In this document: positions 28,208 through 45,133 of the stretch, piece after piece
Position numbering within the stretch: the first letter of the stretch is position 1
How the letters are laid out: each line of letters starts with the position of its first letter
Source of the DNA: Candidatus Bathyarchaeota archaeon
GTDB lineage: Archaea; Thermoproteota; Bathyarchaeia; TCS64
Assembly (NCBI GenBank): GCA_030739585.1
Contig: JASLYX010000007.1
Coordinates: 1-64,000 of the forward strand
Length of the DNA: 64,000 bases
Reading direction: 5' to 3'
The notes under the pieces: generated by a model
Told to the model about the DNA's origin: nothing
Database searches by the model: none
Seen by the model: the letters and a program-made list of their open reading frames with translations, nothing else
Program-made: the position numbers and the translations under genes

Positions 28208-28951
28208 TTAAAAGAGGTCTGCAAAAAGCCTTTTTGCATTCTTACCCAATAGGAGCTCTCGGTAGACTGGGGCCAGAGTAAGGGTTCTTATCTCCTTCAC
28301 CCCCAGTCCTGGGTGATTCTGAGGCGATTCAGAGCCGAAGCAGATACGTGTTGGCCCTATGTCTTTAACAAGACCCACCCCGCTTGTGATCCCGTTCCTG
28401 CCTCCAGTATCTATTATAATATTCCTGTGGACCTTTACCAGCTCCTTTATCCTAGGCCAAAAAGTATTGACCACCAGCCTTACCTCCGGGAACTTGTAGG
28501 CCAGCTGGTTAAGGCCATTGTAGAATGTCTCCCTTCCCATGCTCTCACTTTCCCCTGTTTCACTATTTGGGTTGTTGAAGAGGACAGGCAGTTTGTTTTC
28601 CATGCATGGGACCATGAGTTCCTCTAGTTTCGATCTACCTCTCCCGAATATATGGTGGAATTCGGGATCCAGCATTACGCCCTTTAGACCCATGCTGACT
28701 ATCCTCGCGATCTCATCCCTTGCGTCATCTACGGTGGGGTTGATACAGCCGAAGCCTATGAGCTTGTCAGGATGATCTTGGACTACAGCAGAGATTTGAT
28801 CATTGACCTCCTGAACCTTCATGGATGGGAATGGCATTACGATTGAAACGTCAATGCCATACTTTTCCATGTCTCTTAGGATCTCCTCTGGCTCCTGCTT
28901 GAAGTCCATTAAAGGGTGGTGACCAATATGGGTGTGAATGTCAACAATCAT
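28208..28951 (-). CDS. Amidohydrolase-fold partner protein beta1 (probably non-catalytic)
   Basis: 247 residues of the Amidohydro_2 (TIM-barrel) fold. The first metal motif is kept, IVDIHTH (His6, His8), and so is the LKGVMLDPEFH strand. The later sites are lost: where the alpha partner has AIHSDHS this protein has LPVLFNNPNSE, where alpha has VILHMGG it has VVNTFWPR, and the late metal aspartate GSDSS becomes GSESP. This suggests a structural or regulatory partner rather than an active hydrolase. It follows alpha1 after five bases, and the same alpha-beta arrangement recurs at 40.3-41.7 and 43.6-45.1 kb, where the beta proteins carry the same losses. Confidence 0.8.
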   Translation of the reverse strand: MIVDIHTHIGHHPLMDFKQEPEEILRDMEKYGIDVSIVMPFPSMKVQEVNDQISAVVQDHPDKLIGFGCINPTVDDARDEIARIVSMGLKGVMLDPEFHHIFGRGRSKLEELMVPCMENKLPVLFNNPNSETGESESMGRETFYNGLNQLAYKFPEVRLVVNTFWPRIKELVKVHRNIIIDTGGRNGITSGVGLVKDIGPTRICFGSESPQNHPGLGVKEIRTLTLAPVYRELLLGKNAKRLFADLF

Positions 28952-28956
28952 TTTGT

Positions 28957-29703
28957 CTAAATCCCCAAGAGATTCGCTGCAGAGTCTCCGAGGACCATAG
29001 CCTTCTGCTCTGGGGTGATGTCTGCAACGCGGACCGCATCTAACATGAGCTCCATATAGTCACCTGCTTTCTCAAACCTACTTCCATAGCCTCCGTTCGA
29101 GGAGTCTGAACCAAAAATTATCTTTTCAGGGCCGATGGTCTCTACCGCTTGCTTTATAGCGTATGGGTTTGAATAACAGGTTTCTAAGTAGATGTTGTCG
29201 TTCTTCTCTGCTATTTTGGTGCTGAGGAGTTCTGAGTCGAAGCAAGTCCCCCCGCCCATGTGTAATATGACTGTTGGCACATTAGGGAAGCTGTTGGCAA
29301 TATCACCGATGATATAGGGATGGTTCCTAATGCTGTGATCCGAGTGTATGGCTACAAGCGAATTATAACTCTCTGCTATCTCCATCATAGGGTACATATA
29401 CCGTGCAACAGTGTGTGTGTGCCCCACCTTCACCCCCTTCCACTTATGCTCCCCTAGATATTTCTCCACCAGCTCGAGGCCGACCTCTTCGTACCGTGGG
29501 TCGAAATTTACCAAGGGGATGAATCTATTTGGGTGCTCCCTGGCTGACTTTGCCACGAAAGCATTGTCCTCGGCATCACCGAAGACTCCGAAAACTACCG
29601 CCATTTCAACACCTGTAGCGTCCATGTCATCTATGAGAAGGGTGGCTGGTCCCACTGGGGTCCATCGCTGGGAAAGGTGACAATGAGCATCAATTACAAC
29701 CAT
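28957..29703 (-). CDS. Metal-dependent amidohydrolase alpha1 (Amidohydro_2)
   Basis: 248 residues from the ATG at 29703; a TTG at 29724 is also in frame, but paralogues start at the equivalent of MVVIDAHCH. All active-site positions are in place: IDAHCHLS (HxH), VKVGHTHTVARYMYP, AIHSDHSIRNHPY (His), VILHMGGGTCFDS (His) and IFGSDSSNGG (Asp). Such enzymes hydrolyse amides or decarboxylate small acids. The proteins at 40281 and 44312 are close paralogues. The gene is divergent from the M55 peptidase gene at 29941 and is followed immediately by beta1, so the active enzyme is probably an alpha-beta complex (inference). Confidence 0.85.
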   Translation of the reverse strand: MVVIDAHCHLSQRWTPVGPATLLIDDMDATGVEMAVVFGVFGDAEDNAFVAKSAREHPNRFIPLVNFDPRYEEVGLELVEKYLGEHKWKGVKVGHTHTVARYMYPMMEIAESYNSLVAIHSDHSIRNHPYIIGDIANSFPNVPTVILHMGGGTCFDSELLSTKIAEKNDNIYLETCYSNPYAIKQAVETIGPEKIIFGSDSSNGGYGSRFEKAGDYMELMLDAVRVADITPEQKAMVLGDSAANLLGI

Positions 29704-29940
29704 AAATTCATCTCTTCTTAACAAAAACCAGGTATTTATCGTTATTAAAATAAAGCGAAAATATCCGGAACATCTACCATTGTAAAAAATAAATTATTTA
29801 AGAGAAAAGGTTGAGATTTCACCCTAGGTCATAGAAACGCTAGTGAAAAGGATCTTAAACCAGCATTATCTCTCATAGAAAAGCAACAATCACCTGAGAA
29901 TCATTAAATAAAATGTCGACTAGAACTATATCGACACGAT

Positions 29941-30768
29941 ATGAAAGTATACATTTCATTCGATATGGAAGGCGTCTCTGGGATAGCGGGAGGGGGAATG
30001 ACTGGGCCAAATCCTAGCACACCCTCGGCCTATCCAAGGGGTCAGAGGTTCTCAACTGACGATGTTAAGGCGGCTATCGAGGGAATTCTTGAAGTCGACC
30101 CGGATGCGGAGATCTGGTTTAATGATGCTCATGGGAAATCGATGAACGTTTATTTCGAGGAGTTCCCCGAGAACGTCAAGATAGTTATTAACTCGGCGGA
30201 GCTCTTTGACGAGGCCCTAGGAATAGACGAGTCTTTCGATGCCCTCATCTGTATCGGCTCTCACGGCCACCTAATTCAGCAGGACGGTGTGCTTAGCCAT
30301 ATATGGGATGTTAGGGAGCTAGAGTATAATGGGAAGAGCATAACCGAAACAGGGCTAAATGCCTCTCTGGCGGGACATTATAAGGTGCCTCTCGTTATGA
30401 TCTCTGGTGATGAAGATAGCATGGCGTACATATCTGAAAATATTGGGACAGGTTTCGCGACCGCCGCAGTAAAGAAAGGGATAGGAAGGTATGCTGCGGT
30501 TTCCGTCCATCCAAAGATGGCTCAAAAGCTCATTAAGGCAGCGGTTATCGACGGCCTAAAGAGGCGCGACGAGATAGCTCCATTCGAGTTTGAGAACCCT
30601 ATCACGGTGGATATCACCTACAAGGATCATGGTGGGGCCTTTAACAACATGTTCTTCATGCCACAGGACGAGCGGATTTCAGGAGACAAAGTCAGGTTCA
30701 TAGCTACAAACGCCAAAGAGGCATACTACGGCTTCCTTGCCAGGGACAAATTAAGCAAGAATAAATAG
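29941..30768 (+). CDS. dppA: M55 family D-aminopeptidase (DppA-like), copy 1
   Basis: 275 residues, the size of DppA, a zinc decamer that removes N-terminal D-amino acids from small peptides such as D-Ala-D-Ala. Ligand pattern kept: FDMEGVSGI (Asp8 and Glu10), WFNDAHGKS (His), IGSHGHLIQQDGVLSHIW (two His), and ETGLNASLAGHYKVP (Glu). A TATA-like CATTAAATAAAA at about 29903-29914 lies roughly 30 bases before the ATG, so the transcript may be leaderless. It is divergent from the alpha1-beta1 pair and is followed by a D-aminoacylase-type gene, which together suggest use of D-amino-acid compounds. Confidence 0.88.
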   Translation: MKVYISFDMEGVSGIAGGGMTGPNPSTPSAYPRGQRFSTDDVKAAIEGILEVDPDAEIWFNDAHGKSMNVYFEEFPENVKIVINSAELFDEALGIDESFDALICIGSHGHLIQQDGVLSHIWDVRELEYNGKSITETGLNASLAGHYKVPLVMISGDEDSMAYISENIGTGFATAAVKKGIGRYAAVSVHPKMAQKLIKAAVIDGLKRRDEIAPFEFENPITVDITYKDHGGAFNNMFFMPQDERISGDKVRFIATNAKEAYYGFLARDKLSKNK

Positions 30769-30858
30769 TCTAGCTATAATCTTTATTTTCTTTTTTCATA
30801 TTTTTTTTGTACCCTAAAAAGGGATTTAAACTCAGAAATTTGATTATAATAGATCGAC

Positions 30859-32439
30859 TTGGATTTTGATTTTCTCCTAGTAAAGGGCCATGTCATCGAC
30901 GGAACTGGAAATTCCTGGTTTCGAGCGGATGTAGGTATCGCAGGGGACTGCATCAATTCTATTGGGAACCTGAACGGTTTTGGTGCAAAAAGAACCATTG
31001 ACGCAGACGGGCTCATCGTTGCCCCAGGATTTATTGATATACATGGCCACTCCAGCTATTCGGTGCTTATTGACTCAAGGGTGGAAAGTAAAATCATGCA
31101 GGGTATCACCACTGAGGTTTCTGGAAACTGTGGAACGTCCCCTGCCCCAATGAGAGGAGCTGTTAGGGAATACCGGCAAAGGTTCATGGATGCTAGGCTA
31201 CCTGAAGGTTTTGTCCTCAACTGGGAAACTATGGGAGAGTACCTCGACAAGATAGATGAGCAGGGTGTAGCATTCAATGTTGTACCTCTAGTTGGTCAGG
31301 GTAGTGTACGTCAGAATGTTATGGGATTTGAAGACCGAAAGCCAACAAAGGATGAGATGAAGGAGATGTGTATCCTAACGGATGAAGCCCTGAGAGGCGG
31401 GGCTTGGGGCATGTCCTCTGGCCTAGTCACTACTCCTAGTTGCTACGCAGATACTCAAGAACTCATTGAGCTTGCAAAGGTCGTTGCACGGCACAACTGC
31501 GTTTACTGTATCCATCTCAGGGGGGAGGGAGAGACCCTTTTTAATGCGCTTAATGAGGCCTTTGAGATTGGAAAGAAATCCGGGGTGTCTCTGGAAATTG
31601 TTCATTTCAAGGCCTCAGGAAGAGATAACTGGGGCAAAACTGAGGATGGTCTGAGAATGATCGAAGAGGCTCGTGCCAAAGGCCTAGATGTCACTATTGA
31701 CCAGTATCCCTACATAGCCTCAAGCATCGGTCTTTCAGCCCTTTTGCCTCCTTGGGCTCACAAGGGGGGAAACGATAAGCTCTTGAATAGGCTAAAGGAT
31801 CCCGAATTTAGGGAAAAGATCAAGAATGGGCCAGCCCGATTAACCAAGAATCTTGATAACGTCATGATCTCGTTTGCCAAGAATAATCCAGATTATGAGG
31901 GAATTAGAGTAACTGAGATCGCTAGGTTACAGGATAAGGATCCCTTAGACACTGTTTTTGATATATTATTGGCGGAGAACGCTCAAGTGGGGATGGTTGT
32001 CTTTGGTATGTCCGAGGAGGATGTTGAGCGGGTTATGCGTAGCCCTTATATGATGGTCTGCTCAGACGGCGTGGGCGTGTCACCAAGGGGTACCCACAAA
32101 AGAGGGAAGCCTCATCCCCGATACTATGGCGCCTTTCCCAGGGTTCTAGGCTACTATGTCCGGGAGAAGGGTATTCTAAGTCTCCAAGAGTCTATCAGGA
32201 AGATGACATCATTACCGGCCCAACGGATAGGTCTCAGGGACAGAGGTCTTCTGAGGGAAGGTTTCAAAGCTGATATTGTCATGTTCGACCCCGAGACTGT
32301 GAATGACCAGGCTACTTTCACAGATCCACATAGATTTCCAAAGGGGATAAACTATGTGATGATAAACGGGCGCCTTGTCGTCGATGGTGGGGAACAAACA
32401 AGAGAAATTCCCGGGAGAGTCTTACGCAAACAAGCCTAA
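30859..32439 (+). CDS. N-acyl-D-amino-acid deacylase-type amidohydrolase
   Basis: 526 residues, TTG start. It has the D-aminoacylase layout: a small beta domain, GFIDIHGHSSYS with His62 and His64, then VSGNCGTSPAP with the bridging Cys91, CIHLRGEG and EIVHFKASG for the two later histidines, and CSDGVGVSP with the catalytic aspartate, ending in GFKADIVMFDP. These enzymes release D-amino acids from N-acyl (for example N-acetyl) derivatives. It lies 90 bases after dppA copy 1 in the same direction and probably forms one transcription unit with it. Confidence 0.87.
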   Translation: MDFDFLLVKGHVIDGTGNSWFRADVGIAGDCINSIGNLNGFGAKRTIDADGLIVAPGFIDIHGHSSYSVLIDSRVESKIMQGITTEVSGNCGTSPAPMRGAVREYRQRFMDARLPEGFVLNWETMGEYLDKIDEQGVAFNVVPLVGQGSVRQNVMGFEDRKPTKDEMKEMCILTDEALRGGAWGMSSGLVTTPSCYADTQELIELAKVVARHNCVYCIHLRGEGETLFNALNEAFEIGKKSGVSLEIVHFKASGRDNWGKTEDGLRMIEEARAKGLDVTIDQYPYIASSIGLSALLPPWAHKGGNDKLLNRLKDPEFREKIKNGPARLTKNLDNVMISFAKNNPDYEGIRVTEIARLQDKDPLDTVFDILLAENAQVGMVVFGMSEEDVERVMRSPYMMVCSDGVGVSPRGTHKRGKPHPRYYGAFPRVLGYYVREKGILSLQESIRKMTSLPAQRIGLRDRGLLREGFKADIVMFDPETVNDQATFTDPHRFPKGINYVMINGRLVVDGGEQTREIPGRVLRKQA

Positions 32440-32617
32440 GCATTTCGTTCGATCCAAAGTCCAATATTTTTTGTTGTTTTACAGTCAATAGGTCAATGGA
32501 TTTGGGTTCTTGGAACCAATAGGCGGAAGTCAAATGGAGTCATTGTATTTGTTTGGTTTCACCGATATGAAATGACCTATTACAATTAAAATAAAAAAAG
32601 AAAGAAAATAGTTTAGT

Positions 32618-35185
32618 TTAAGGAGTTTTTTCTAGTGTGTAGACCCAGCCCGGATCAGTGATCCAAGCTATGCTATACTGGAACCCGGATACATAGTCGT
32701 GTGCTGCAAAGAAGGCTGGAGTATAGACTGTAAGCATGCCCGGAATGTCGTCTTCGAGGATTTTCTGGGCATCTATATACAGCGCTTCCTGAGCTGCAGC
32801 ATCTGAAGTGGCTGTAGCTTCTGCGAGCAAATCGTCAACTTCTGAGCTTCGGTAACCAAATCTACCTGCATATCCTTGTGTTCCTGAGTAGACGTTCTGA
32901 ATATAGTAAGCATCAGGTCCGTTTTCTGCGACCATGGTTCCAAAAGGCGTTCCTCCGCCGACCAAGTCTCCCCAGGTCGTAACCGTCGGAATCACCTTGA
33001 ATTTGGGGTTGATGTCTGCAATGGATTGAGCTAATAGCTCACCTAGGACGCCACCAGTATCCGCAGCCCATGCTTGGTATGCATAAGTTATCTGGAAGCC
33101 TTCGTCCCAATACTTTCCACCGTATGCCAGTTTGAACTCCTCCTCTGCTTTCACAGGGTCGTACGTGTAAGGGAAGTTCTCATAGTATCCAGGCCATCCA
33201 GTATTAAGGACGCCCTTTGCAGGCTCAGCCCATCCGAGGTAGACCTCATTTACATAGGTCTCGTATGGAAGAGAATATGAGAACGCTTTCCTCATATGTA
33301 CATCTGCGCTAAAGAAGTCTCCTGGTACCTGGTTGTCAGATGGTGCTTTTGTTTCATCAAAGTCATGACCAAAGTAGCAAACCTCTATGAATCCCTCTTG
33401 TCTGATGGGAGTTACATAGGTTTGTGATGTTGCTGGTAGGGCAATAACCTGTTCAGCTTGAACGGGAGAAGCTGGGGACATTACGTCAATGTCACCCTCC
33501 CGGAACATTAGATATTTAGTTGACCACTCTGAAATGGTGAGGCTTAATATAGTCTCCTCTGGAGCTGGACCCTGCCAGTAGTCATCGAACCGAGTAAGCT
33601 GAATCCGCTCACCTTTGGACCACTCCTCTACCATGAAAGGCCCTGAGCCAATAACCCCCTTACCTGCGATGACGCCTTCAACGTCCTCAAAGGCTGGGTC
33701 AAGTTCGATGGACCAGTCTCTAGTGTCTCCCAAATACCATGAACCTGCTTCAATGGCTGCTGCTTTTTGGATGATTCCCCTGCCTGGATATGCCACCGTG
33801 AATAAGAAAGGTCCATAGGTTCGGGAGAGCTTGAACACAACCGTTTTGTCGTCAGTTGCGTAGATGTGGTCTTCAAGGGCCTCGGTGGTGATAGGTTCAC
33901 CATATTCGATTCCTAGAAGAGGTTCCACCAAAAGTGCTCCCCAACTCATTCCCTTTCCCATGCTCCGGCGGTATGTATAGACAACGTCATGTGCTGTAAG
34001 CGCTGATCCATCCCAGAATTTTATTCCATCCCTCAGTGTGAAGGTATAAGTCAAGCCATCTGCAGAGACATCAAGATCCTTGGCGAGACCACCCTCAAGT
34101 GAAGGCTCTGTTCCGCCTGGTAGGAACGCCATAAGAGTGTCGAACAATGCTAGGTCAATCCATCTTCCGACATTTCCTTCCGAGAGTCTCATAGGCTCGA
34201 GATGTGATGGAGCGCCCATAGCCATAATCAAAGTATCAGGATTCTTCACAATACCTTGGTAGCTGACAGGCTCCTCAGTGACGATTATAGTTCTTGCCAC
34301 AGAGTCCTCTTTTGCATTAAGTTTGTTAGTGACAGTTAACACCACGCTATAGCTTCCAGGCTCGTCATAAGTATGGGTTGCAGTTTTACCTGAGGAAACA
34401 GATCCGTCACCGAAATCAAAGCTCCAACTTTTAACATTGGAACTGTATGACTGGATGGCGCCTCTCCTCAACCGGTAGTGATAAGATGCACCACCAGAAA
34501 CCTCTACTTCCTCACCAACCTTCACAACACTTGCTGATGCACCAATGATGGCCACGGGAGGTAGATCAAGGCTGAGCTCTGTAACCTGAGGTCTGTTGAT
34601 TTTGATAAAGACTGGAGCGGCTATAGTATTAGCCTTACCCCCCTCATCGTCCTCGGCATCAACGTAAATAACGTAGGAGCCGGGGACAGAGTAGGTGTGT
34701 TTGACATTTTTACCTAACGCTGTTGTTCCATCGCCAAAGTGCCAAAGATACTTTACTATTTCTCCATCCGGATCAATAGATCCTGCGGCGCTGAAAGAGA
34801 CAGCTTCACCTAAATCAGCTGAAGTAGAGTAGCCTATTGAAGCGACCACTGGGACCTTATTGTCCGGTAAATCACTTTTTCCACTGGTTTTTGCACTAGG
34901 TCTTGCACCAGGTTTAGGTTTCGCTTTAGGAGCAGGTTTTGGATCGGCTTTTGCTTTGGTTTTTGGACTAGCTTCAGGAACGGGTACTGGAATGAATTTT
35001 GGACTAGTTTTAGGAGCAGGTCTTGGACTTGATTTAGCTTTAGGTCGTGGACTTGCTTTAGGAGTGGTTGTAGTAGCGGGTTTTTGAGAACTACTGAAGT
35101 AGATCAGACCCGCGATAACCACTACAAGTACAACGGCTGCAATAATTAAAGTTTGATTTTGCGAACTTGCTTTTCTTGATTGCAT
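32618..35185 (-). CDS. Peptide-type ABC solute-binding protein with two PKD domains
   Basis: 855 residues, much longer than usual SBP_bac_5 receptors (about 500-600). Order: a hydrophobic anchor helix (12-30); a Pro/Lys/Ala-rich low-complexity linker (about 35-105, repeats of the PKAKPKP kind); PKD domain 1 (111-196, with WHFGDGTT and HTYSVPGSY); PKD domain 2 (210-303, with FDFGDGSV and HTYDEPGSY); then a full extracellular oligopeptide-binding domain (311-855). It is likely membrane-anchored, with the linker crossing the surface layer and the PKD domains as spacers. No permease or ATPase gene is near. A TATA-like TTTAAA lies about 40 bases upstream. Probable ligand: peptides or amino-acid derivatives. 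Confidence 0.87.
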   Translation of the reverse strand: MQSRKASSQNQTLIIAAVVLVVVIAGLIYFSSSQKPATTTTPKASPRPKAKSSPRPAPKTSPKFIPVPVPEASPKTKAKADPKPAPKAKPKPGARPSAKTSGKSDLPDNKVPVVASIGYSTSADLGEAVSFSAAGSIDPDGEIVKYLWHFGDGTTALGKNVKHTYSVPGSYVIYVDAEDDEGGKANTIAAPVFIKINRPQVTELSLDLPPVAIIGASASVVKVGEEVEVSGGASYHYRLRRGAIQSYSSNVKSWSFDFGDGSVSSGKTATHTYDEPGSYSVVLTVTNKLNAKEDSVARTIIVTEEPVSYQGIVKNPDTLIMAMGAPSHLEPMRLSEGNVGRWIDLALFDTLMAFLPGGTEPSLEGGLAKDLDVSADGLTYTFTLRDGIKFWDGSALTAHDVVYTYRRSMGKGMSWGALLVEPLLGIEYGEPITTEALEDHIYATDDKTVVFKLSRTYGPFLFTVAYPGRGIIQKAAAIEAGSWYLGDTRDWSIELDPAFEDVEGVIAGKGVIGSGPFMVEEWSKGERIQLTRFDDYWQGPAPEETILSLTISEWSTKYLMFREGDIDVMSPASPVQAEQVIALPATSQTYVTPIRQEGFIEVCYFGHDFDETKAPSDNQVPGDFFSADVHMRKAFSYSLPYETYVNEVYLGWAEPAKGVLNTGWPGYYENFPYTYDPVKAEEEFKLAYGGKYWDEGFQITYAYQAWAADTGGVLGELLAQSIADINPKFKVIPTVTTWGDLVGGGTPFGTMVAENGPDAYYIQNVYSGTQGYAGRFGYRSSEVDDLLAEATATSDAAAQEALYIDAQKILEDDIPGMLTVYTPAFFAAHDYVSGFQYSIAWITDPGWVYTLEKTP

Positions 35186-35396
35186 TTTTATTTATTCCTT
35201 TGTTGTATATACCCCGTTCTGATAGTTTTAAATAAGTTTATGTTTGAAAGTCTTCTTTTTTCATATTTTGTCTAAAAAAGGAACGATTTTCTCCCTTATT
35301 TGATTACAATTATTTCAAAGATTTCTATGAAATTGATCCAAAAATACATGAAAATGCGCTTCATTCATGCAATAAAATGGGAAGAGGTTTTCTACC

Positions 35397-36569
35397 TCAT
35401 TTTTTTATTTCCTTTGAAACAGGCTTTTTGAATCTGCTCGGGTTGAAACTGTCGAGCAATGGGTCCCACTCATCATTCATAATATAGTTGGTGAGAATCC
35501 TGCCTGTATCAGGGGCCAAGATTACGCCATTGCCACTCATGCCCGTAGCAATTAGGAAACCTTCTACATCTGATTCACCGACTATGGGGAGTTTGTCAAG
35601 AGTCACCGATCTATAGCCCAGCCAGTCGTTCACGAGTTCAGCATCAAGAAGTTTAGGTACACTCTCTGCTAATCGGTCTGTGAGGAAGTCGAAAAAGTAT
35701 TCCTCTGTACCCCCACTGAGGGATAGTTCATCAGGATCCCAGATCCCAGTCTCAATGGCTTTCCCATAGTCCATAGCCATATGGCTTTTGCAGACAAAAA
35801 CTGCTCGACCCTCTGACCGTGCATACCAATTAGGATATTTGAGTATTGGGAACTCGTAGTCTAGTGGCTCAGTGGTCTTTAAGATAAACACTTCTGCCTT
35901 GGTATGAACCAAAGGTAGATCTATACCCGCCAGTGCACCTACCTTATTGGACCAAGGTCCAGCCGCACAGACCACGGTATCAAATTCGTAATCTCCTTTC
36001 GAAGACTGTATCCCAGTTACCACACCGTCTTTTGTCTGTATCCCATTCACATTTGCGTGCGTGATGAATTTAGCTCCTTGCTCCCTTGCCCATCGTGCAT
36101 AGATAAGTGAGGCAGCCGTTGGGTTATTGTAACCATCATCTGGAGTCCAAGCTCCACCGAGTAGTCCCTCAGAGTTCAAGTCTGGGAGATATTTTACGAG
36201 TCCCTCTGGATCCTCGATAAACTTGGCGTTGAATCCAGCTAGCTGACTCGCCTCAACGTGCAGCTTCGCCCTTTTCATTTCTGCCTTAGTAGGGCTTACT
36301 ACGAGTGTCCCCGATTTAATAAACTCGCTTTCCCCGTGGGTGTCATCATTCATTTTCTTATATGTATTTAGGCATGTGACTCTCTGCTTGAAGAACTCAT
36401 AGGGCAGTGAGTCATCGATAAGGCATAAAGTCCCAGCGGATTTTGCTGTTGTACCCGAGCCAATCTGGTTCTTTTCGAAGACAATAACATCAACATCATC
36501 ACATTTCGTGAGATGATAGGCGAGGGCAGTACCGATGATCCCAGCACCAATAATACCGATCCGTTTCAA
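35397..36569 (-). CDS. FAD-dependent oxidoreductase, DAO/DadA family
   Basis: 390 residues. Dinucleotide-binding GIIGAGIIGTALAYHL at 5-20, a VIVFEKNQIGSGTTAKSAG segment with the glycine/D-amino acid oxidase pattern, TVVCAAGPWSNKVG in the middle, and a C-terminal FLIATGMSGNGVILAPDTG loop that contacts FAD. Relatives oxidise glycine, sarcosine, proline or D-amino acids. In this context (D-aminopeptidase, D-aminoacylase) oxidation of D-amino acids is likely, but substrate specificity cannot be read directly. It lies on its own transcript, divergent from nothing, upstream of a small DNA methylase remnant. Confidence 0.85.
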   Translation of the reverse strand: MKRIGIIGAGIIGTALAYHLTKCDDVDVIVFEKNQIGSGTTAKSAGTLCLIDDSLPYEFFKQRVTCLNTYKKMNDDTHGESEFIKSGTLVVSPTKAEMKRAKLHVEASQLAGFNAKFIEDPEGLVKYLPDLNSEGLLGGAWTPDDGYNNPTAASLIYARWAREQGAKFITHANVNGIQTKDGVVTGIQSSKGDYEFDTVVCAAGPWSNKVGALAGIDLPLVHTKAEVFILKTTEPLDYEFPILKYPNWYARSEGRAVFVCKSHMAMDYGKAIETGIWDPDELSLSGGTEEYFFDFLTDRLAESVPKLLDAELVNDWLGYRSVTLDKLPIVGESDVEGFLIATGMSGNGVILAPDTGRILTNYIMNDEWDPLLDSFNPSRFKKPVSKEIKK

Positions 36570-36736: not shown

Positions 36737-37222
36737 CTAGGAAGTATGTTGGACTACTCGTTTTCTTCCAAGATCGGTAATACCCCATATACCCCACTTC
36801 GGACTGTTCATTTCTCCCTTTTTGATTAAAACAAACCTTACCCATTGAATTCTATTTTCCCATTTATTTGAAGTGGATACTCTTATTTTCAATTCTTCTT
36901 CTGAAATTTCGGGAAAACAATCAGTGATTAATGGATAATCATCCATGTTTCTAATTTTATTTGTTAATACTTCTATGGCTTTTTTATCTATATCAAATCC
37001 CCATATATAATCACTAATATTTTTATTTTTTAACTTATTATTGTTTTGTCTAAACCATGAATACATTCTTGTTATGAAATTTCCTGTTCCACAAGAAGGA
37101 TCTAAAACATATTCTATATTGTCATCAACACACAAACTTATTATTAAATCAACAAGATACCTAGGCGTATAATATTTACCTAAAATATATTTCTCATTTT
37201 GTTCAGCCATAATCTTTTCCAT
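36737..37222 (-). CDS. Truncated N6-adenine methylase joined to an Mrr-like winged helix
   Basis: 161 residues, very A+T-rich. The N-terminal part is the start of a type I/II adenine methylase: YYTPRYLVDLIISL, the SAM motif VLDPSCGTGNFITRMY (about 40-55) and GFDIDKKAIEVLTNKI. The catalytic NPPY motif and the rest of the methylase are missing. From about residue 105 the protein reads ISEEELKIRVSTSNKW, continues IQWVRFVLIKKGEM and ends WGITDLGRKR, the Mrr N-terminal winged-helix pattern. This looks like a deletion fusion of two restriction-modification genes rather than a working enzyme, and marks the edge of a degraded mobile segment. Confidence 0.65.
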   Translation of the reverse strand: MEKIMAEQNEKYILGKYYTPRYLVDLIISLCVDDNIEYVLDPSCGTGNFITRMYSWFRQNNNKLKNKNISDYIWGFDIDKKAIEVLTNKIRNMDDYPLITDCFPEISEEELKIRVSTSNKWENRIQWVRFVLIKKGEMNSPKWGIWGITDLGRKRVVQHTS

Positions 37223-37302
37223 TGATAATTAATACTTTATTATATATAAAAAAAGATAGATGAATTCAGGACACAATCTGGTTCAATACGCGTGGAGCAA
37301 CA

Positions 37303-37473: not shown

Positions 37474-37494
37474 AATTTTTTATTTTTTTCTAAG

Positions 37495-37587: not shown

Positions 37588-37658
37588 GGATTCAGGCAAA
37601 ATCTCGAAGGTGAGGCTCGGAAAATCAGATTCGCAAACAAGATCTTGGAGGATCTATA

Positions 37659-37919: not shown

Positions 37920-38083
37920 GTTCTAATTTTCGATATATGTGTGGTAAATGTGGAACGGAGTTTATAGCCAGCTATCAGCCGTCAAAGAATCCCCGTTGTG
38001 TACTCTGTCGTCAAGACCCAGGAACGAAGAAACTCAAAGAACTCGAATCAGAAAAACGTCGTCATATGTTCCTGTTGGGTTAA
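37916..38083 (+). CDS. 55-residue zinc-ribbon protein
   Basis: Reads MSSNFRYMCGKCGTEFIA with Cys9 and Cys12, then PRCVLCRQ with Cys28 and Cys31, so a four-cysteine zinc ribbon with CxxC knuckles, followed by a charged helix KKLKELESEKRRHM. The ATG overlaps the stop of the preceding gene (ATGA). Probably binds nucleic acid or protein; no family name can be given. It belongs to the cluster of tiny genes in the mobile-looking patch. Confidence 0.6.
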   Translation: MSSNFRYMCGKCGTEFIASYQPSKNPRCVLCRQDPGTKKLKELESEKRRHMFLLG

Positions 38084-38095
38084 AGGTGAAAATCC

Positions 38096-38338
38096 ATGAG
38101 TGATTTTTACGATGATATTGAACGACGAGCACTAGAAGATGAGAAAATTACTCTCCAGAATCGGGCCAGATTTCAGGAAAAGAAAACCCAGTGGCTGACC
38201 ACAATTTGTCCCGGTTGTTCGCGGAAAGTAGAATACGCTTTGAAAGAGGGAGTGGTCTTTGACGGAAATTTAAAATGCGGGCATTGTGGAAAATCTTTTC
38301 ATCTGAGTCGATTGTCTGATTTCATGGGGGAGAAGTAA
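38096..38338 (+). CDS. 80-residue zinc-ribbon protein
   Basis: An N-terminal acidic/basic helix (MSDFYDDIERRALEDEKI) precedes a zinc ribbon with CPGC (about 38-41) and CGHC (about 61-64), then FHLSRLSDFMGEK. It starts 12 bases after the previous stop, with an AGGTGA box before the ATG. The second ribbon protein in a row, no recognised family. It may be a small DNA-binding regulator of the element that carries it. Confidence 0.6.
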   Translation: MSDFYDDIERRALEDEKITLQNRARFQEKKTQWLTTICPGCSRKVEYALKEGVVFDGNLKCGHCGKSFHLSRLSDFMGEK

Positions 38339-38370
38339 TGATAAATCGAATATTATGATGTTAGAAAGAG

Positions 38371-38420
38371 ATTATCAAGATTATAATAAGATTATAACGA
38401 GATTATAATGAGACAATAAG
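38371..38420 (+). repeat. Iteron-like direct repeats GATTATAA(T/C)
   Basis: ATTATC at 38371 is followed by ATTATAAT (38380), ATTATAAC (38391) and ATTATAAT (38402), each preceded by AAG or GAG, then a diverged ACAATAAG (38413). Start-to-start distances are 9, 11, 11 and 11 bases, one helical turn. Another AGATTATAAA lies at 38461. Such phased repeats occur at plasmid origins and at operators. Confidence 0.5.
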
Positions 38421-38497
38421 GGAAGTTTTATAAGGATACGGTTGTTCCCTTTCGAATAGGAGATTATAAAATAATGATCCCTGAAACTAGAAATAAC

Positions 38498-38603
38498 CAC
38501 TATCATCCCACGCATTTTTTTGCGTATGCGTCGAGCGCCCGGAAGGGCGTAGGCATTACAAGAGGAGGGGGTGGTTGAGCGGGAGGCGTGAGCTGGGATA
38601 GTG
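38498..38603 (+). ncRNA. Candidate structured RNA element
   Basis: A 106-base stretch much richer in G+C than its surroundings with nested complementarity. The outer stem is CACTATC (38498-38504) with GATAGTG (38597-38603), extended past a two-base bulge by CC and GG. Inside are CGCA-T7-TGCG near 38511-38524 and GCCC-GGAA-GGGC at about 38527-38538. It lies downstream of the direct repeats. A 33-codon frame covers its first part, so it could be a leader or replication-control RNA. Transcription is not shown. Confidence 0.35.
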
Positions 38604-38781
38604 AGGTATTGGGATTGTTATCACACCGATAAATACTCTGAGAGAACAGACAGAAGGGGTTTTTCTTTGGGACGGTGTGTGATTCTTAGAAAGTGATTCA
38701 AACTTGAGAAGGACAGGGATGACGAAGATTTCACAGATGTTTCAATCGATGACCTATTTGTGAGCGGAGAGGCGATGTGAA

Positions 38782-39171
38782 GTGACAGACCAGATTTGGA
38801 TGATGGGAGAGGAGCTTAAGGCGAGTGTTGAAATTTTCGATCTGATAGCTAAGAATAGAAACATGTTAGGTTGGGACAGGATTATCGCAATGGTTATATA
38901 AGAATTCATAAAATCTTTTGGAGGTAGCAATTATAAAAATCGAAATAGGTATGAGCTTCGTTCGGAGATCTCAGCCGTTGGGGTCTGTTTCAGAGATTCG
39001 CCTGAGGACTATATTCAAAACATGGTCGAATCTAGTGGAGGTCATATCTGTCTAATTCTGGTTCAGTTGCCGAATGATGACGCTTACCAAGAAGTTCATT
39101 ATCCAATGGAGACGGCAGGCATCAATGAGGATTGGGAGCTTTGTCATGTGATAAGAGGGATTCATGGGTAG
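38782..39171 (+). pseudogene. 130-codon frame interrupted by one TAA
   Basis: From a GTG at 38782 the frame reads MTDQIWMMGEELKASVEIF and on to GWDRIIAMVI, then TAA (38899-38901), then stays open for 89 codons (EFIKSFGGSNYKNRNRYEL; later GGHICLILVQLPNDDAY) to a TAG. Composition and hydrophobic pattern look coding on both sides, so this is probably one gene broken by a nonsense change. Its family is unknown. Confidence 0.4.
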
Positions 39172-39293
39172 TGAGTCAGGTTAACGCCTCCTCTTTTCTT
39201 TTATTTTAAAAAAATAAATTTTTCTAATTCACAGAAAATAACCCTTTATTCATTTCTGAAAAAAGGGTACAATAGATGTAGAACGAAAAGACC

Positions 39294-40121
39294 TTATCTC
39301 TGAGAACTGGCGTGCCTTATCATTGACTGTAATGCTTTATATGCTTCTAGGAATGGACCCTCAAATTTAAGGGTCAGTCCATCAACCCTCTTTGAAAAGG
39401 GAGTCATTTCTGCTGCGTCTGCCATCCCTGTATGTTGGAACTCTATCTCAATCGTGGTAGGTTCCTTTATCTCGAATGGTTTGAAATCCTTAATCCGCTT
39501 CACAGCCCTATTTGCGCTTTCCTCTAGGAGTTTAGATGAAATTGTAGGGGGTAAGAGTATAGCGGATGTCCGCCCTAGGCCTTTTTTGACCTCCACTGTC
39601 TCAATGTCCCCAAAATGTGCTTTACTCTCCTCTACTGCTTTGTTACACCCGCTAAGGAAGGCTATTGGGACTCCAAAGTGTCCCGCAATTGCTGCGTTTA
39701 TGCCGATTTCCCCCATAGGTACCCCATTTACCCGGAGGACATTTATGGGCGGCAGGAAGGTGTGCTCTATGACGCCCCGATGGGTCCCTCTCATCGGATG
39801 CAAACCAACGAGAAATATTGCATCACAGCTCTGATAGACCTCAGACATAACAGAGACGGGCCGACTCGCAGATCTCCCATTCAGGTACCTGATTTCCTCT
39901 TCAAGTTTTTCGAAAATCAGGTTTTGACCCCATCCCGCGTGGGAGTCAATAAGATAGACCTCATCTACCCCCGCCTTGACGGCTCCCCGAGCGACTGCAT
40001 TAATATCGCCTGTGGAGAGGACTCTACTCTGCTCGTAGAACCGCTCGGATCTCCCTGTCTGCTCTGTCTCTAATACTACTCCCGTTACTCCCTCTAAGTC
40101 AAAATTTATGATTATCCGCAA
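39294..40121 (-). CDS. dppA: M55 family D-aminopeptidase (DppA-like), copy 2
   Basis: 275 residues, TTG start. The M55 ligand set is kept: FDLEGVTGV (Asp8, Glu10), LIDSHAGWGQN (His), GLHPMRGTHRGVIEHTF (His residues) and EIGINAAIAGHFGVP (Glu). It is only distantly similar to copy 1 at 29941, so this is an old duplication or separate acquisition. As with copy 1, it is divergent from an alpha-beta amidohydrolase pair (starting at 40281), so the spacer of about 160 bases should contain back-to-back promoters. Likely role: removal of N-terminal D-residues from small peptides. Confidence 0.87.
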   Translation of the reverse strand: MRIIINFDLEGVTGVVLETEQTGRSERFYEQSRVLSTGDINAVARGAVKAGVDEVYLIDSHAGWGQNLIFEKLEEEIRYLNGRSASRPVSVMSEVYQSCDAIFLVGLHPMRGTHRGVIEHTFLPPINVLRVNGVPMGEIGINAAIAGHFGVPIAFLSGCNKAVEESKAHFGDIETVEVKKGLGRTSAILLPPTISSKLLEESANRAVKRIKDFKPFEIKEPTTIEIEFQHTGMADAAEMTPFSKRVDGLTLKFEGPFLEAYKALQSMIRHASSQR

Positions 40122-40280
40122 TTTGTTTCATTCCACGAATATATCAACACGGGGCATGTTTGCTATATCTAATTTCCGACCTAATTAAATGCAAATTCCA
40201 AGATATTCTTTAGCATATTTTAAACTAAAACAATGAAGGCTCAAATACCTTGGGATAATAAATATTGTTGGAGACCTATC

Positions 40281-41009
40281 TTGGTAATCATTGATGCTCA
40301 TTGCCATCTATCCCCGAGAAGGAGTAAAGCATCCTCATTGGTCGAGAGCATGGATCCTGCAGGAATAGACATGGCCTGTGTCTTCGGAAACGACAATGAG
40401 TTCGTGGCCGAAGCTGCAAAAAACTTCCCGGACAGATTTATCCCCTTCGTCTACTTTGATCCCAGGTATGAGGAGATCGGCGTGGAGACAGTGGAAAAAT
40501 ATGCAATAGAGTATGGCTGGAAAGGAGTCAAAGTTGGACATCAGCATGCGGTTGCCCGCTTCATGTATCCAATGATGGAAAAGGCGGAGGAGCATAAAAT
40601 GATAGTGGTGATTCACTCGGACCACAGCATAAGGAACCACCCTTACGTCATTGGGGATATCGCGAATAGCTTCCCTAAAGTCCCAACTGTTATTCTTCAC
40701 ATGGGTGGGGGTACATGCTTCGACTCAGAGCTTTTGAGTACAAAAATAGCCCAGAAAAACGAAAATATTTACTTGGAAACCTGCTACTCCAATCCCTTCG
40801 CCATCAAACAGGCTGTGGAAACGCTGGGCTCTGAACGAATCATGTTTGGTTCAGATGAATCCAACGGGGGATACGGGAGCAGATTTGAAAAGCCAGGTCA
40901 GTACCAGGACCTAATGCTCGATGCTGTCAGGGTTATAGGACTCCAAAAAGATCAGGAAGAAGCAGTTCTCGGAGGCACAGCGGCTAAGCTTCTCGGGATT
41001 GACAGGTAA
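40281..41009 (+). CDS. Metal-dependent amidohydrolase alpha2 (Amidohydro_2)
   Basis: 242 residues from the TTG at 40281, chosen because GGAG lies seven bases upstream and the protein then starts LVIIDAHCH exactly like alpha1; an ATG at 40233 would add 16 residues. Active-site residues are complete: IDAHCHLS, VKVGHQHAVARFMYP, VIHSDHSIRNHPY, VILHMGGGTCFDS and MFGSDESNGG. It is the closest paralogue of alpha1 (most of the barrel strands are identical). Its stop overlaps the ATG of beta2 by one base (TAATG), showing translational coupling. Confidence 0.85.
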   Translation: MVIIDAHCHLSPRRSKASSLVESMDPAGIDMACVFGNDNEFVAEAAKNFPDRFIPFVYFDPRYEEIGVETVEKYAIEYGWKGVKVGHQHAVARFMYPMMEKAEEHKMIVVIHSDHSIRNHPYVIGDIANSFPKVPTVILHMGGGTCFDSELLSTKIAQKNENIYLETCYSNPFAIKQAVETLGSERIMFGSDESNGGYGSRFEKPGQYQDLMLDAVRVIGLQKDQEEAVLGGTAAKLLGIDR

Positions 41010-41749
41010 TGATAATTGATATCCACTCCCACCTAGGGCATCATCCGCTCCAGGACTTCAAGCAGGGACTAGAGGAGATCCTGAGAGACATGGAGACATA
41101 TGGGATATCTAGAAGTTTCCTCCTCCCGTTTCCTTCTATGAAGATCAAAATTGTCAACGACACTGTGGCCTCCTCAGTGAAAGAACACCCTGAAAAACTA
41201 ACTGGCTTCTCCGTTCTTAATCCGACGGCAGATGATGCCTTAGAGGAAGTTGAGAGAATTGTGAGTCTAGGATTAAAGGGGGTGATGCTAGATCCTGAGT
41301 TCCACAGCGTCTTCCGTCATCAGGCAAAGGTGGAAGAGCTCATGGTACCGTGTATGGACAATAATCTCCCAGTTCTATTCAATACACCAAACATCGAAGT
41401 GGGAGAAGGAGCAAGGATGGGCCGAGAGCCTTATTACAATGGACTTAAGAACCTTGCTTTCAAATTTCCCGATGTCAGGTTTGTAGTGAGTCCTTATTGG
41501 CCTCGGATAAAGGTACTAATGATAAAGTATTCCAACATATTCATCGATAGTGGAGGCAGGAATGGTATATCGGGGGCAGTCAGACTCATGACGGACATCG
41601 GACCCACCAGGGTCTGCTTTGGCTCTGAGTCACCCCAAAACCACCCAGGCCTTGGGGTTAAGGCTATCAGGACCATGAAGATGCCCCCAGTTTACAGAGA
41701 CCTGTTGCTGGGTAGAAACGCGAAAAGAATCTTTGGAGACATTTTTTAA
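41009..41749 (+). CDS. Amidohydrolase-fold partner protein beta2 (probably non-catalytic)
   Basis: 246 residues, close paralogue of beta1. It keeps IIDIHSHLGHHPL (HxH) and LKGVMLDPEFH, but has LPVLFNTPNIE where active enzymes carry a histidine, VVSPYWPR in place of the next one, and GSESPQNHPG in place of the GSD aspartate. The very conserved GSESPQNHPGLGVK stretch suggests a preserved, different function, such as forming the interface with alpha. One-base overlap with alpha2. Confidence 0.8.
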   Translation: MIIDIHSHLGHHPLQDFKQGLEEILRDMETYGISRSFLLPFPSMKIKIVNDTVASSVKEHPEKLTGFSVLNPTADDALEEVERIVSLGLKGVMLDPEFHSVFRHQAKVEELMVPCMDNNLPVLFNTPNIEVGEGARMGREPYYNGLKNLAFKFPDVRFVVSPYWPRIKVLMIKYSNIFIDSGGRNGISGAVRLMTDIGPTRVCFGSESPQNHPGLGVKAIRTMKMPPVYRDLLLGRNAKRIFGDIF

Positions 41750-41798
41750 TATAAATGAGGACCATGAGCCCTCCCTTGATATTTTCCAAGTTTGATCC

Positions 41799-42653
41799 TT
41801 AGATATCCTGATTAGATTTCAGTTCTACTATTTTAGCGTACATCTCTGGTCTTCGCTCCTTGACGTAGACTCTGCGTCTCCTCCAATTTTTGTCGTCCTC
41901 CAAGTCGATTGTGGCGGTTATTACGCATTCCTCGAATCCAGCTTGAGCCAGCACCTTTCCATTAGGGTTCACAATCATGCTGTTCCCAAAATACTCTTTT
42001 CCGCTCTCCTTACCCCCTCTATTTACGAAGACACCAAAAACTCCACTGTCATACGCCCTAGCCCTGTTCACCATAACCCATCTATCGGGATATTGGGCCT
42101 TATCCCTCGGGAAGATCACTGAGGGGACCACTACTATCTCTGCCCCTTTGAGAGATAGGACCCTAAATGGCTCCGGAAACTCTCGGTCATAGCAGATTAG
42201 TGTCCCTATCTTCCCAATTTCTGTCTGGTAGACGCTGTAGTCTGATCCAGGAGAGAAGTAGAATTTCTCCTCAGGTCTAGGAGGGACATGCGTTTTTCGA
42301 TATTTCCCAATTATTAACCCATCGGGACCAATAAGAGGAGCCGTGTTGTAAAATTTTCCTGATGTCTGTTTCTCAAAAATGGGGGCAACAATGTATACAT
42401 GGTATTTCTTTGCGATGTCCCCAATGGCCTTAGTGGTGGGCCCGGGGATGGTCTCAGCCATCTCAAAGAAATTAGGGTTTCGATCCTTAAAGATGTAGAA
42501 CCCCATGGTAAATAGTTCAGGCAGCACCATGAGGTTCGCCCCTTTATCTACCGCTGTCTCGATTAGATCAATTGCCCTTTCGATATTTGCATCTTTATCA
42601 AACGGAGCGCAGTTCATCTGAATTGCAGCTAGTGTAAGATTACATTTATCCAT
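41799..42653 (-). CDS. Carbon-nitrogen hydrolase (nitrilase superfamily)
   Basis: 284 residues from the ATG at 42653 (MDKCNLTLAAIQMNCAP); an in-frame start 18 codons upstream gives an unlikely Cys-rich tail. The catalytic triad is Glu46 (VLPELFTMGF), Lys120 (GKYRKTHVP) and Cys154 (LICYDREFPE). The HVPPRPEEKFYFSPG segment resembles the N-carbamoyl amidases (beta-ureidopropionase, N-carbamoyl-D-amino acid and N-carbamoylputrescine amidohydrolases). Given the nearby allantoinase-type and D-amino-acid enzymes, removal of a carbamoyl group from an amino acid is a reasonable guess. Confidence 0.85.
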   Translation of the reverse strand: MDKCNLTLAAIQMNCAPFDKDANIERAIDLIETAVDKGANLMVLPELFTMGFYIFKDRNPNFFEMAETIPGPTTKAIGDIAKKYHVYIVAPIFEKQTSGKFYNTAPLIGPDGLIIGKYRKTHVPPRPEEKFYFSPGSDYSVYQTEIGKIGTLICYDREFPEPFRVLSLKGAEIVVVPSVIFPRDKAQYPDRWVMVNRARAYDSGVFGVFVNRGGKESGKEYFGNSMIVNPNGKVLAQAGFEECVITATIDLEDDKNWRRRRVYVKERRPEMYAKIVELKSNQDI

Positions 42654-42742
42654 TTTTGATATCCTGCAACTAGGATAACAAGGAAATATAAAAAAGCATA
42701 AGCGCACTCAGGTGTCTATGAGAGGATATTTTTTCCTCAAGC

Positions 42743-43492
42743 TCACTCTTGTCTCTGAAAATATAGATCCAAAAGCGTCTCTCGAGCACCAAGAAACCTC
42801 TCTTGATGCTCTTTGACTATTGAGGTGAGGTTGTCAAGGATATACTGTTCCGAAGTATCTGTACCCTCATTGTGATCGCAAAGTGCACCTACAATCCAAT
42901 ACTGAAACTCTGGGTGAGGCCAGTCAAGCGTAATCGATGATAGACCCTGCTCTCTGAATAAGGCTGTCATATGAGCCTCTGTGTACATTACAAAGCCCGG
43001 GTATACCCATTTGTCTCCTGTATAGTTGAATTTGCCTTTTGCATATGTGGCGACGAAAAGGGAAGTTGGGCTCATTACTTTCCTTGCTTCTGAAAGACAT
43101 CTGCGGATATGATGCTGTGAGGCGTGGGAGAAAATGGAGTGTGCTAAAATATAATCAAATTTTCTTCCAAATACAGACAGGGTAAAGTTATCGTCGTTAT
43201 TGAAGACCGGTTTTTTCACTTTGATTATATCCTCTCCAAGCTCATTTCTTATCCCCTCATCAATAAGCCATTGTTTAGGTTCAATGCCGTAATATCTCCC
43301 GGGCAGAAGGAAGGGAATAAAGAGTTTCCCCGCTCTGAGGGATCCACACCCGATATCAAGGAAATAGTGGTTCTCTCTGAGATTTAGGAAGGTGAGCAAG
43401 TTAAACTGGTTAGCACTAATTAAATCGTATTTAGCTAATGTCCCCACGAAGCCTTTGTAATCTTGTTCACATTCCCGGGTTCCTACGTTCAT
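42743..43492 (-). CDS. SAM-dependent methyltransferase
   Basis: 249 residues from the ATG at 43492 (MNVGTRECEQDYKGFVG). The frame extends further upstream but would run through the end of beta3. SAM-binding motif I is YFLDIGCGSLRAGKLFIPFL; then YYGIEPKQWLIDEG (motif II acidic residue), FDYILAHSIFSHASQHH and a late FVATYAKGKFNYTGD. Class I methyltransferase of a family often found with surface-polysaccharide or small-molecule genes. The acceptor is unknown, and it has no evident link to the hydrolases around it. Confidence 0.75.
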   Translation of the reverse strand: MNVGTRECEQDYKGFVGTLAKYDLISANQFNLLTFLNLRENHYFLDIGCGSLRAGKLFIPFLLPGRYYGIEPKQWLIDEGIRNELGEDIIKVKKPVFNNDDNFTLSVFGRKFDYILAHSIFSHASQHHIRRCLSEARKVMSPTSLFVATYAKGKFNYTGDKWVYPGFVMYTEAHMTALFREQGLSSITLDWPHPEFQYWIVGALCDHNEGTDTSEQYILDNLTSIVKEHQERFLGARETLLDLYFQRQE

Positions 43493-43565
43493 GAAAGTAC
43501 TCCTGTTAACATAAATACAGCAACAATATAGTCTCTCGTTCAGTACTAAAATAAACTTAGGAGGG

Positions 43566-44315
43566 CTAGAGGAGGTCCTTGAAAATCCTCTCAGCATTGC
43601 CGCCGAGGATGAGCTTCCGCTGATATGGTGTAATCTTGGACCATTCCACGGTCTGCTTATGGTTCCCGGTATGGTATCTTGGAGAGCTGGATCCGAATAG
43701 AAGTCTTGTGGCACCGAGGCCGGCAACCAAGCTGGATATTCTCCCAGCTGATGCCCCAGCAGAGTCTACGTATAGATTTGAATGTTTCTTGCAGAGTTCT
43801 ATAATTCCAGGCCAGAATAGGTCAACAATCGTCCTTACCTCAGGGAATCGGCTCATAAGTTCATCTAGGCCATTATACTGCTGAAGTGCGTTGTCATGGC
43901 TGTGTCCTACCCTAAGATTGGGTATGCATATGAGGATTGGGAACCCTTTCTCCACCGCCTTCTCAAAGATAGGGGGCAGCATCGGGTTTCCGGGAGTCAA
44001 CGGTCGCTCCATGCTAAAGTGGAATTCAGGGTCCAACATCAGCCCCTTTAACCCCAGGCCTATAGCCCGGTCTATCTCAAGGAGGGCATCCGGATGTACA
44101 GGGTTCACGTTAAAGAAACCTACAAGCTTTTCAGGGTGATTCCTCACTGCCTGCTCAACTCGGTCATTTGCTTCCTTGAAGCGCATTTTAGGGGCAGAGC
44201 TAAGGAATGTTTTTTCAATTCCGTATTTTCTCATCTCCCCCAGGATTTCGTCAAGAGTCTGTTCAAACATAAACAACGGATGCTTCCCAAGCTGTGAATG
44301 TACGTCAATAATCAT
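43566..44315 (-). CDS. Amidohydrolase-fold partner protein beta3 (probably non-catalytic)
   Basis: 249 residues, the most diverged beta. Even the first metal motif is altered to IIDVHSQLGKHPL (HxQ). The next sites read FPILICIPNLRVGH and TIVDLFWPG, with no histidine at the expected places, and the late aspartate is Ser in LFGSSSPRYHTG. LKGLMLDPEFH and the general barrel pattern still match beta1 and beta2. It overlaps alpha3 by four bases (ATGA). Its loss of all canonical ligands is the strongest sign that beta proteins are pseudoenzymes. Confidence 0.8.
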   Translation of the reverse strand: MIIDVHSQLGKHPLFMFEQTLDEILGEMRKYGIEKTFLSSAPKMRFKEANDRVEQAVRNHPEKLVGFFNVNPVHPDALLEIDRAIGLGLKGLMLDPEFHFSMERPLTPGNPMLPPIFEKAVEKGFPILICIPNLRVGHSHDNALQQYNGLDELMSRFPEVRTIVDLFWPGIIELCKKHSNLYVDSAGASAGRISSLVAGLGATRLLFGSSSPRYHTGNHKQTVEWSKITPYQRKLILGGNAERIFKDLL

Positions 44316-45133
44316 ATTTTCACCTCAACGCCAAATAATTTAGCAGCATTTAGACCCATAAGTTTGTCCTCCTCTTCTTGAAGGAGGTTAAGGCATCGTA
44401 TGGTATGCATATGGATCATCATTTCATATGCTTGTTTTTCGTAGCCACTTCCGTATCCTAATCCAGAATTAGACGAGTCCGAGCCGAACATGATCTGATC
44501 AGGGCCGAGGATCTCAACCGCCTTCTTTACTGGAAAGGGAGTAGAAAAACAGGTCTCAAGCCAAACGTTAGGATTCTTTTCAGCCATTTTAATCGAAAGC
44601 ATTTCTGCAGCGGCTGATGTTCTGCCCCCCATATGGAGGATGACCGTTGGTACTTTAGGGAAGGAGTTTGCTAGGTCGCCAATGATATAGGGGTGTCCCC
44701 TTACACTATGGTCGGAGTGGATACCAACGACGGCCCCATATTCCTCAGCCTTCTCCATCATTGGATACATCCATCGGGCAACGGCAAATTTATGACCTAT
44801 CTTGATGCCTTTGAAGGTCTCACTATCTTTTGCCATACAACGATCAATTTCATCAATGCCCTCCTGTTCGTATCTTGGATCAAAATAGATAAAGGGTACA
44901 ATGCGTCCGGGGTAGTCCACAGCGGCCTGAAGATTAAAGTCATTGTTTTTTCTAAGCTCCTCGATATATTGACCGCCGCTCCCCATAGAGATTATAGTAT
45001 CCACTCCTGCCGCGTCCATCTTGTCGATCATGGTCTCAACATAAGCTTTGACACCTCTGCGCTCGCCCCTGAGATGAGTGTGCGCGTCAATAACAATCGG
45101 ATTTTTTCTATCGGTCAAATAGTCACCTGCCAT
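44312..45133 (-). CDS. Metal-dependent amidohydrolase alpha3 (Amidohydro_2)
   Basis: 273 residues from the ATG at 45133 (MAGDYLTDRKNPIVIDAHTH), with AGGA seven bases upstream; a TTG at 45166 is also in frame. The active site is complete: VIDAHTHLRGER, IKIGHKFAVARWMYP, GIHSDHSVRGHPY, VILHMGGRTSAAAEM and MFGSDSSNSGLGYG. It differs from alpha1 and alpha2 by a longer N-terminus and a changed loop after HMGG (RTSAAAEM instead of GTCFDSEL), so it may use another substrate. It is coupled to beta3 and divergent from the NHL-repeat gene at 45263. Confidence 0.85.
   Translation of the reverse strand: MAGDYLTDRKNPIVIDAHTHLRGERRGVKAYVETMIDKMDAAGVDTIISMGSGGQYIEELRKNNDFNLQAAVDYPGRIVPFIYFDPRYEQEGIDEIDRCMAKDSETFKGIKIGHKFAVARWMYPMMEKAEEYGAVVGIHSDHSVRGHPYIIGDLANSFPKVPTVILHMGGRTSAAAEMLSIKMAEKNPNVWLETCFSTPFPVKKAVEILGPDQIMFGSDSSNSGLGYGSGYEKQAYEMMIHMHTIRCLNLLQEEEDKLMGLNAAKLFGVEVKI

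Follow-up and report, generated by a model that had tools for sequence, protein, structure and literature searches.

Three pairs of adjacent Amidohydro_2 genes

We analyzed a stretch of 64,000 nucleotides of a Candidatus Bathyarchaeota archaeon (assembly GCA_030739585.1, contig JASLYX010000007.1), hereafter called the window, which lies on contig C7 of a 1.69-Mb genome (G000). The closest named relative of this genome is the Candidatus Bathyarchaeota metagenome-assembled genome (MAG) QDN_3 (G001). The window contains three pairs of same-strand genes, at 28208-29703, 40281-41749, and 43566-45133, in which a gene termed alpha is always located upstream and a gene termed beta downstream. Their protein lengths, scores against the Pfam model PF04909 (Amidohydro_2), and states at the metal-binding positions, the latter taken from a table of ligands, are as follows.

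28957-29703, minus strand: alpha copy 1, intact Amidohydro_2 (H7xH9, K92, H120, H148, D200), 248 amino acids, 77 bits
28208-28951, minus strand: beta copy 1, degenerate Amidohydro_2 (HxH retained; K replaced by M, strand-5 H by N, strand-6 H by T, strand-8 D by E), 247 amino acids, 38.6 bits
40281-41009, plus strand: alpha copy 2, intact Amidohydro_2, 242 amino acids, 89 bits
41009-41749, plus strand: beta copy 2, degenerate Amidohydro_2 (HxH retained; K replaced by M, H by N, H by P, D by E), 246 amino acids, 37 bits
44312-45133, minus strand: alpha copy 3, intact Amidohydro_2, 273 amino acids, 100 bits
43566-44315, minus strand: beta copy 3, the most degenerate (HxQ in place of HxH; K replaced by M, H by C, H by L, D by S), 249 amino acids, 65 bits

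All six proteins thus exceed the curated PF04909 cut-off of 26.4 bits, whereas no NCBIfam model matched alpha or beta. The initial annotation had reported three coupled pairs and their spacings, and inspection of the junction letters bears this out: alpha and beta are separated by 5 bases in copy 1 (TAG-ACAAA-ATG), the beta start codon shares 1 base with the alpha stop codon in copy 2 (TAATG), and the genes overlap by 4 bases in copy 3 (ATGA). Within the pairs, alpha and beta are 23 to 25% identical. Copies 1 and 2 resemble each other most (alphas about 71 to 72%, betas 67%), and the identity of copy 3 to copy 1 is 49% for alpha and 43% for beta. A shared operator was sought upstream of the three cassettes and was not found. 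A fourth live/dead pair, of another type, is present in the same genome (G000:C1:305561-307056; locus L047), next to genes for a formamidase-family protein and a thermosome-type chaperonin.

The beta proteins have a predicted barrel and have lost the metal site

In the alignment, each of the three alphas has the complete metal and catalytic set (HxH, K, H, H, and D). At the same positions the betas contain HH-M-N-T-E (copy 1), HH-M-N-P-E (copy 2), and HQ-M-C-L-S (copy 3), corresponding to the loss of 4 or 5 of the 6 key positions and of 3 or 4 of the 5 His/Asp ligands, so that the set HxH, H, H, D is present in every alpha of the window and in none of its betas. AlphaFold2 predicted a TIM barrel for alpha and for beta (copy 1; pLDDT, a per-residue confidence score, of 83 and 71, respectively), and the top fold matches of both proteins in the Protein Data Bank (PDB) were PF04909 decarboxylases, with ACMSD (4ifk) as the best match of beta. 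The "second barrel protein" of the initial annotation is indeed predicted to be a barrel, and its identity can be refined: judged from its sequence, beta is a diverged pseudoenzyme paralogue of alpha that has lost the metal site. The former active-site face of beta showed no extra conservation (0.66, as compared with 0.69 for the opposite face and 0.55 elsewhere).

An active/dead division in related genomes

To place these pairs in context, PF04909 members were collected with the Pfam model from nine genomes of the same family that were at least 90% complete and were counted by hand, excluding truncated genes, a relic on G000:C13, and distant long amidohydrolases. In all 14 tandem pairs the upstream gene was intact and the downstream gene degenerate; the latter include the beta of G009:C15, which is split by an in-frame TAA. 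Among the complete unpaired members, 31 of 32 were intact, the sole exception being G013:C105. The contrast between paired downstream and unpaired genes corresponds to a Fisher exact p of 6e-11, a value that overstates the number of independent events because related pairs share ancestry. The degenerate states are of several unrelated kinds (HHMN[TP]E, HQMCLS, HHVHSN, HFQHQD, LFKHAR, and LYKQHE). What looked like one fused open reading frame (ORF) at G013:C113 turned out to consist of two genes, the TAA of the first being followed directly by the ATG of the second.

Selection, co-inheritance, and age of the pairs

Between the window and QDN_3, the ratio of nonsynonymous to synonymous change (pN/pS) was 0.10 to 0.12 for the three alphas and 0.11 to 0.14 for the three betas; synonymous sites were almost saturated in this comparison. 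Beta is thus under purifying selection as strong as that on alpha. QDN_3, which belongs to the same genus, shows conserved synteny across the whole island and its three pairs, and a scan of the genome contigs with beta as the query matched only this relative. Taken together, the synteny and the purifying selection indicate that the pairs are not due to chance. Since all three pairs are in place in both genomes, the amplification predates their split and is old rather than recent; a recent duplication was accordingly rejected, with copies about 71/67% and 49/43% identical (alpha/beta) and all three loci already present in QDN_3.

The branching order of the alpha tree matches that of the beta tree for each copy and each genome, and this holds in two distinct families of pairs. 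For the window's family, the correlation between alpha and beta distances was 0.979, as compared with a median of 0.72 when partners were shuffled within genomes.

These data bear on the idea that the betas are decaying alpha duplicates that persist by chance. Two decayed relatives do occur elsewhere in the genome, namely a fifth alpha (G000:C13:12766-13509; L093:6761-7294), which is 53% identical to alpha 2, has one in-frame TAA, has lost its ligands, and has no adjoining beta, and a beta-like relic with many stop codons and no adjoining alpha (G000:C1:361525-362120; L048:6535-7071). The three window betas, however, are open, and the comparison of two species of the genus shows them to be as constrained as alpha; the selection test contradicts decay, which makes this explanation hardly credible.

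Recurrence and fusion of the pairs in archaea and bacteria

Across the Thermoproteota, 250 genomes were searched and 20 loci were inspected. Further live/dead pairs were identified in G328, G303, G254, G234, G174, G285, G127, G155 (two), G175, G133 (two), G125 (two), G193, and G168. The order is dead before live in G285, G127, G155:C5, one locus each of G133 and G125, G193, and G168. All fused or tightly spaced pairs retrieved from this phylum, in either order, combine one intact and one degenerate member, except those at G111:C14 and G162:C101. At G175:C161 both members form a single chain of 523 amino acids, with the dead half preceding the live half.

Outside the Thermoproteota, the spread was assessed in a plasmid collection. 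Plasmids of five haloarchaea (Natrononativus, Haloprofundus, Halomontanus, Natronosalvus, and Halosolutus) encode a protein of 558 to 565 amino acids (for example WP_255171496) with a live N-terminal and a dead C-terminal half, and the Halomontanus rarus plasmid (L121:2302-5689) harbors two adjoining fusions, one dead-live (541 amino acids) and one live-dead (562 amino acids). The latter fusions lie near genes for an MR/MLE enzyme and a C-N hydrolase, as in the window. In a tree of 38 domains, the haloarchaeal halves branch with the matching unfused Thermoproteota genes (support 99/95 for the live and 98/93 for the dead halves), indicating that the same kind of pair is encoded by two genes in one phylum and by one polypeptide in another.

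Bacterial cases comprise plasmids of Paracoccus and Ponticoccus, with a dead gene followed by a live PF04909 gene alongside UbiD/UbiX; a Klebsiella pneumoniae plasmid (CP067510.1; L114:6001-9920), on which a phosphotransferase system (PTS) operon includes one live and one dead PF04909 gene with PTS genes between them; and Nonomuraea. The Klebsiella operon was looked for in Escherichia coli and was not found. The live and dead members of Klebsiella are mutual closest relatives in the tree, as are those of Paracoccus, and the dead state must have been gained or lost four or more times to account for the well-supported branches. On these phylogenetic grounds, the live/dead arrangement most likely arose more than once.

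An alternative is that beta is a second, neofunctionalised enzyme that acts without metal or through different residues and catalyses the following step of the pathway, with alpha and beta being coupled by the operon rather than in an obligate complex. Metal-independent members of PF04909 exist (PMC10811679, citing LigI), and beta is strongly conserved and keeps family-specific residues at its strand ends, such as KGxMLDPEFH and GSxSPxxH. Yet the lost residues vary between independent pairs while the live/dead rule holds, and the partner-wise co-inheritance and one-chain fusions fit a single enzyme better, although fusions of consecutive enzymes do exist. We therefore regard neofunctionalisation as unlikely.

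A probable heteromer of a catalytic subunit and a dead partner

In our view, each cassette is likely to encode one heteromeric PF04909 enzyme with a catalytically dead, most likely obligate partner, an arrangement that has re-evolved several times. The initial annotation had proposed a heteromeric alpha-beta enzyme, and this is still the best reading; its support is indirect and comes from the adjacency, which we found to be conserved in many other genomes, from the mirrored trees, and from the fusions in haloarchaea and in one Thermoproteota genome. From these data we infer the physical complex, the role of beta, and the reaction.

Catalysis would be performed by alpha, acting as a mononuclear metal-dependent hydrolase or lyase with an ACMSD-type ligand set, and beta would be the same barrel without a metal site, taking the place of the second subunit of a probable ancestral homodimer. 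Beta would most likely be obligate for alpha, holding the dimer together and/or closing or shaping the substrate pocket of alpha across the interface, as occurs between ACMSD subunits. In ACMSD, Arg239 from the adjacent subunit is essential to each active site (PMC11650718), and a subunit that lacks metal can thus still be needed. Relief of autoinhibition, as in AdoMetDC/prozyme, and simple stabilisation, as proposed for AibH1 (PMC12141560), would be equally compatible. The pair probably originated by tandem duplication followed by the loss of one site, after which both genes would have been copied together (three times in the window), with several independent origins in PF04909 and occasional fusion into one chain.

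Several observations weigh against this explanation. Both members of the tandem pair at G111:C14 are intact, and the usual active/dead split was not seen at the related tandem locus G162:C101; conversely, dead members without a partner occur at G013:C105 and in Natronosalvus (L120). In the betas of copies 1 and 2, HxH is retained and Glu replaces Asp, a pattern compatible with a structural metal as in AibH1. No conserved beta arginine matching ACMSD Arg239 was identified by alignment, the strand-6 loop varies between pair families, and ten betas share just one invariant arginine, which precedes strand 8. A donated arginine as a general rule is thus not supported by the sequences.

We also lean towards the wider view that PF04909 holds a widespread, un-named class of live/dead heteromers in archaea and bacteria, generated repeatedly by tandem duplications after which one copy lost its metal site, with an obligate dead subunit and occurring in tandem in both orders as well as fused. 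This family comprises more than 100,000 proteins that are largely uncharacterized (PMC10811679). If many of them need a dead sister, expression of single genes would yield inactive protein and the assignment of substrates would keep failing; if the class is real, many proteins annotated as "amidohydrolase family protein" are half of an enzyme. The recurrent origins, in split and fused form, would offer a natural series to study why a homodimer gives up one active site.

The surrounding catabolic island

The initial annotation had placed the cassettes in a catabolic island, which is supported by the profile matches of the surrounding genes.

25715-55657: surrounding catabolic island
25715 and 30859: Amidohydro_3 genes, of the N-acyl-D-amino-acid-deacylase-like kind and others
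29941-30768, plus strand: M55 D-aminopeptidase-family gene, divergent, adjoining cassette 1 (PF04951, E value 4e-63)
32618: peptide-type binding protein with PKD domains
35397: FAD-dependent oxidoreductase of the amine/D-amino-acid type
39294-40121, minus strand: M55 D-aminopeptidase-family gene, divergent, adjoining cassette 2 (PF04951, E value 4e-73)
41799: C-N hydrolase
46331: MR/MLE enzyme
49029: cupin of the ureidoglycine aminohydrolase type
49800: hydantoinase/allantoinase-type enzyme
51318 and 53080: AstE/AspA-type deacylases

The M55 peptidases, the deacylase- and hydantoinase-like enzymes, the amino-acid oxidoreductase, and the peptide-type uptake protein suggest substrates derived from amino acids or peptides; genes of peptide-type ABC (ATP-binding cassette) transporters also adjoin several pairs of the second pair family. 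The two M55 genes are only 28% identical to each other, as compared with about 70% for the cassettes they adjoin, which indicates that cassette and M55 gene were not simply copied together.

Other features of the window include two tRNAs, the only matches of an Rfam scan; a truncated piece of an N6 DNA methylase that is joined to the N-terminal domain of Mrr (36737-37222) and is probably left over from a restriction-modification system, with about 2 kb devoid of long ORFs after it; and, near the contig end, a gene of the phosphotriesterase family (PF02126; 62672-63661), which is an amidohydrolase-superfamily barrel. On G001:C8, an ORF resembling a terminase large subunit (L046:3209-4564), perhaps a provirus remnant, lies a few kilobases from a live/dead pair.

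Comparison with known systems

The initial annotation knew of no named system with this arrangement. This does not hold, since the 2-aminoisobutyrate hydroxylase AibH1H2 of Rhodococcus wratislaviensis (PMC7782822, PMC10401708) is a heterotetramer of two PF04909 paralogues, encoded by adjacent genes and 28% identical, of which one is noncatalytic but required (PMC7782822). In our search of the literature on pseudoenzyme and tandem amidohydrolase pairs, in which subscription journals were mostly not covered, it was the only heteromer of PF04909 paralogues found.

These likenesses raise the question of whether the window pairs are themselves dinuclear oxygenases of this type. AibH1H2 is an oxygenase whose dinuclear Mn/Fe or diiron site has D-H-H-E-D-H ligands (Asp25, His27, His211, Glu265, Asp337, and His340 in the catalytic AibH2; PMC7782822), it operates with Rieske and reductase partners, its noncatalytic subunit still binds metal, and its proteins have 373 to 378 amino acids, as compared with about 245 in the window pairs. 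The sequences of the latter instead predict a mononuclear hydrolase-type HxH/H/H/D set: the set of alpha starts with H-x-H and has a His on strand 6, which contradicts the dinuclear signature D-x-H, H, E, D, H. No Rieske gene is present near the window pairs, the only PF00355 match of the genome being on contig C1. Moreover, Bathyarchaeota are generally regarded as anaerobic. With both the ligand signature and the Rieske neighbor lacking, the window pair is not a member of the AibH1H2 group, and an oxygenase of this type is very improbable.

ACMSD and related PF04909 decarboxylases and hydrolases (2hbv, 4ifk, 4l6d, and 3cjp) share the fold of alpha and beta. In ACMSD, zinc is bound by His9, His11, His177, and Asp294, and His228 activates the metal-bound water (PMC11650718); alpha contains the corresponding H7, H9, H120, and D200, as well as H148 for the catalytic His228. 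ACMSD differs in being a homodimer of identical live subunits of about 330 amino acids, with no dead partner gene.

Activation of a live enzyme by a dead paralogue is known from the AdoMetDC/prozyme and deoxyhypusine synthase of trypanosomatids (PMC5201418, PMC3663545), which belong to unrelated families and organisms; for AdoMetDC/prozyme, activation occurs via relief of autoinhibition (PMC5201418). The window pair may work like AibH1H2 in having a noncatalytic sister subunit.

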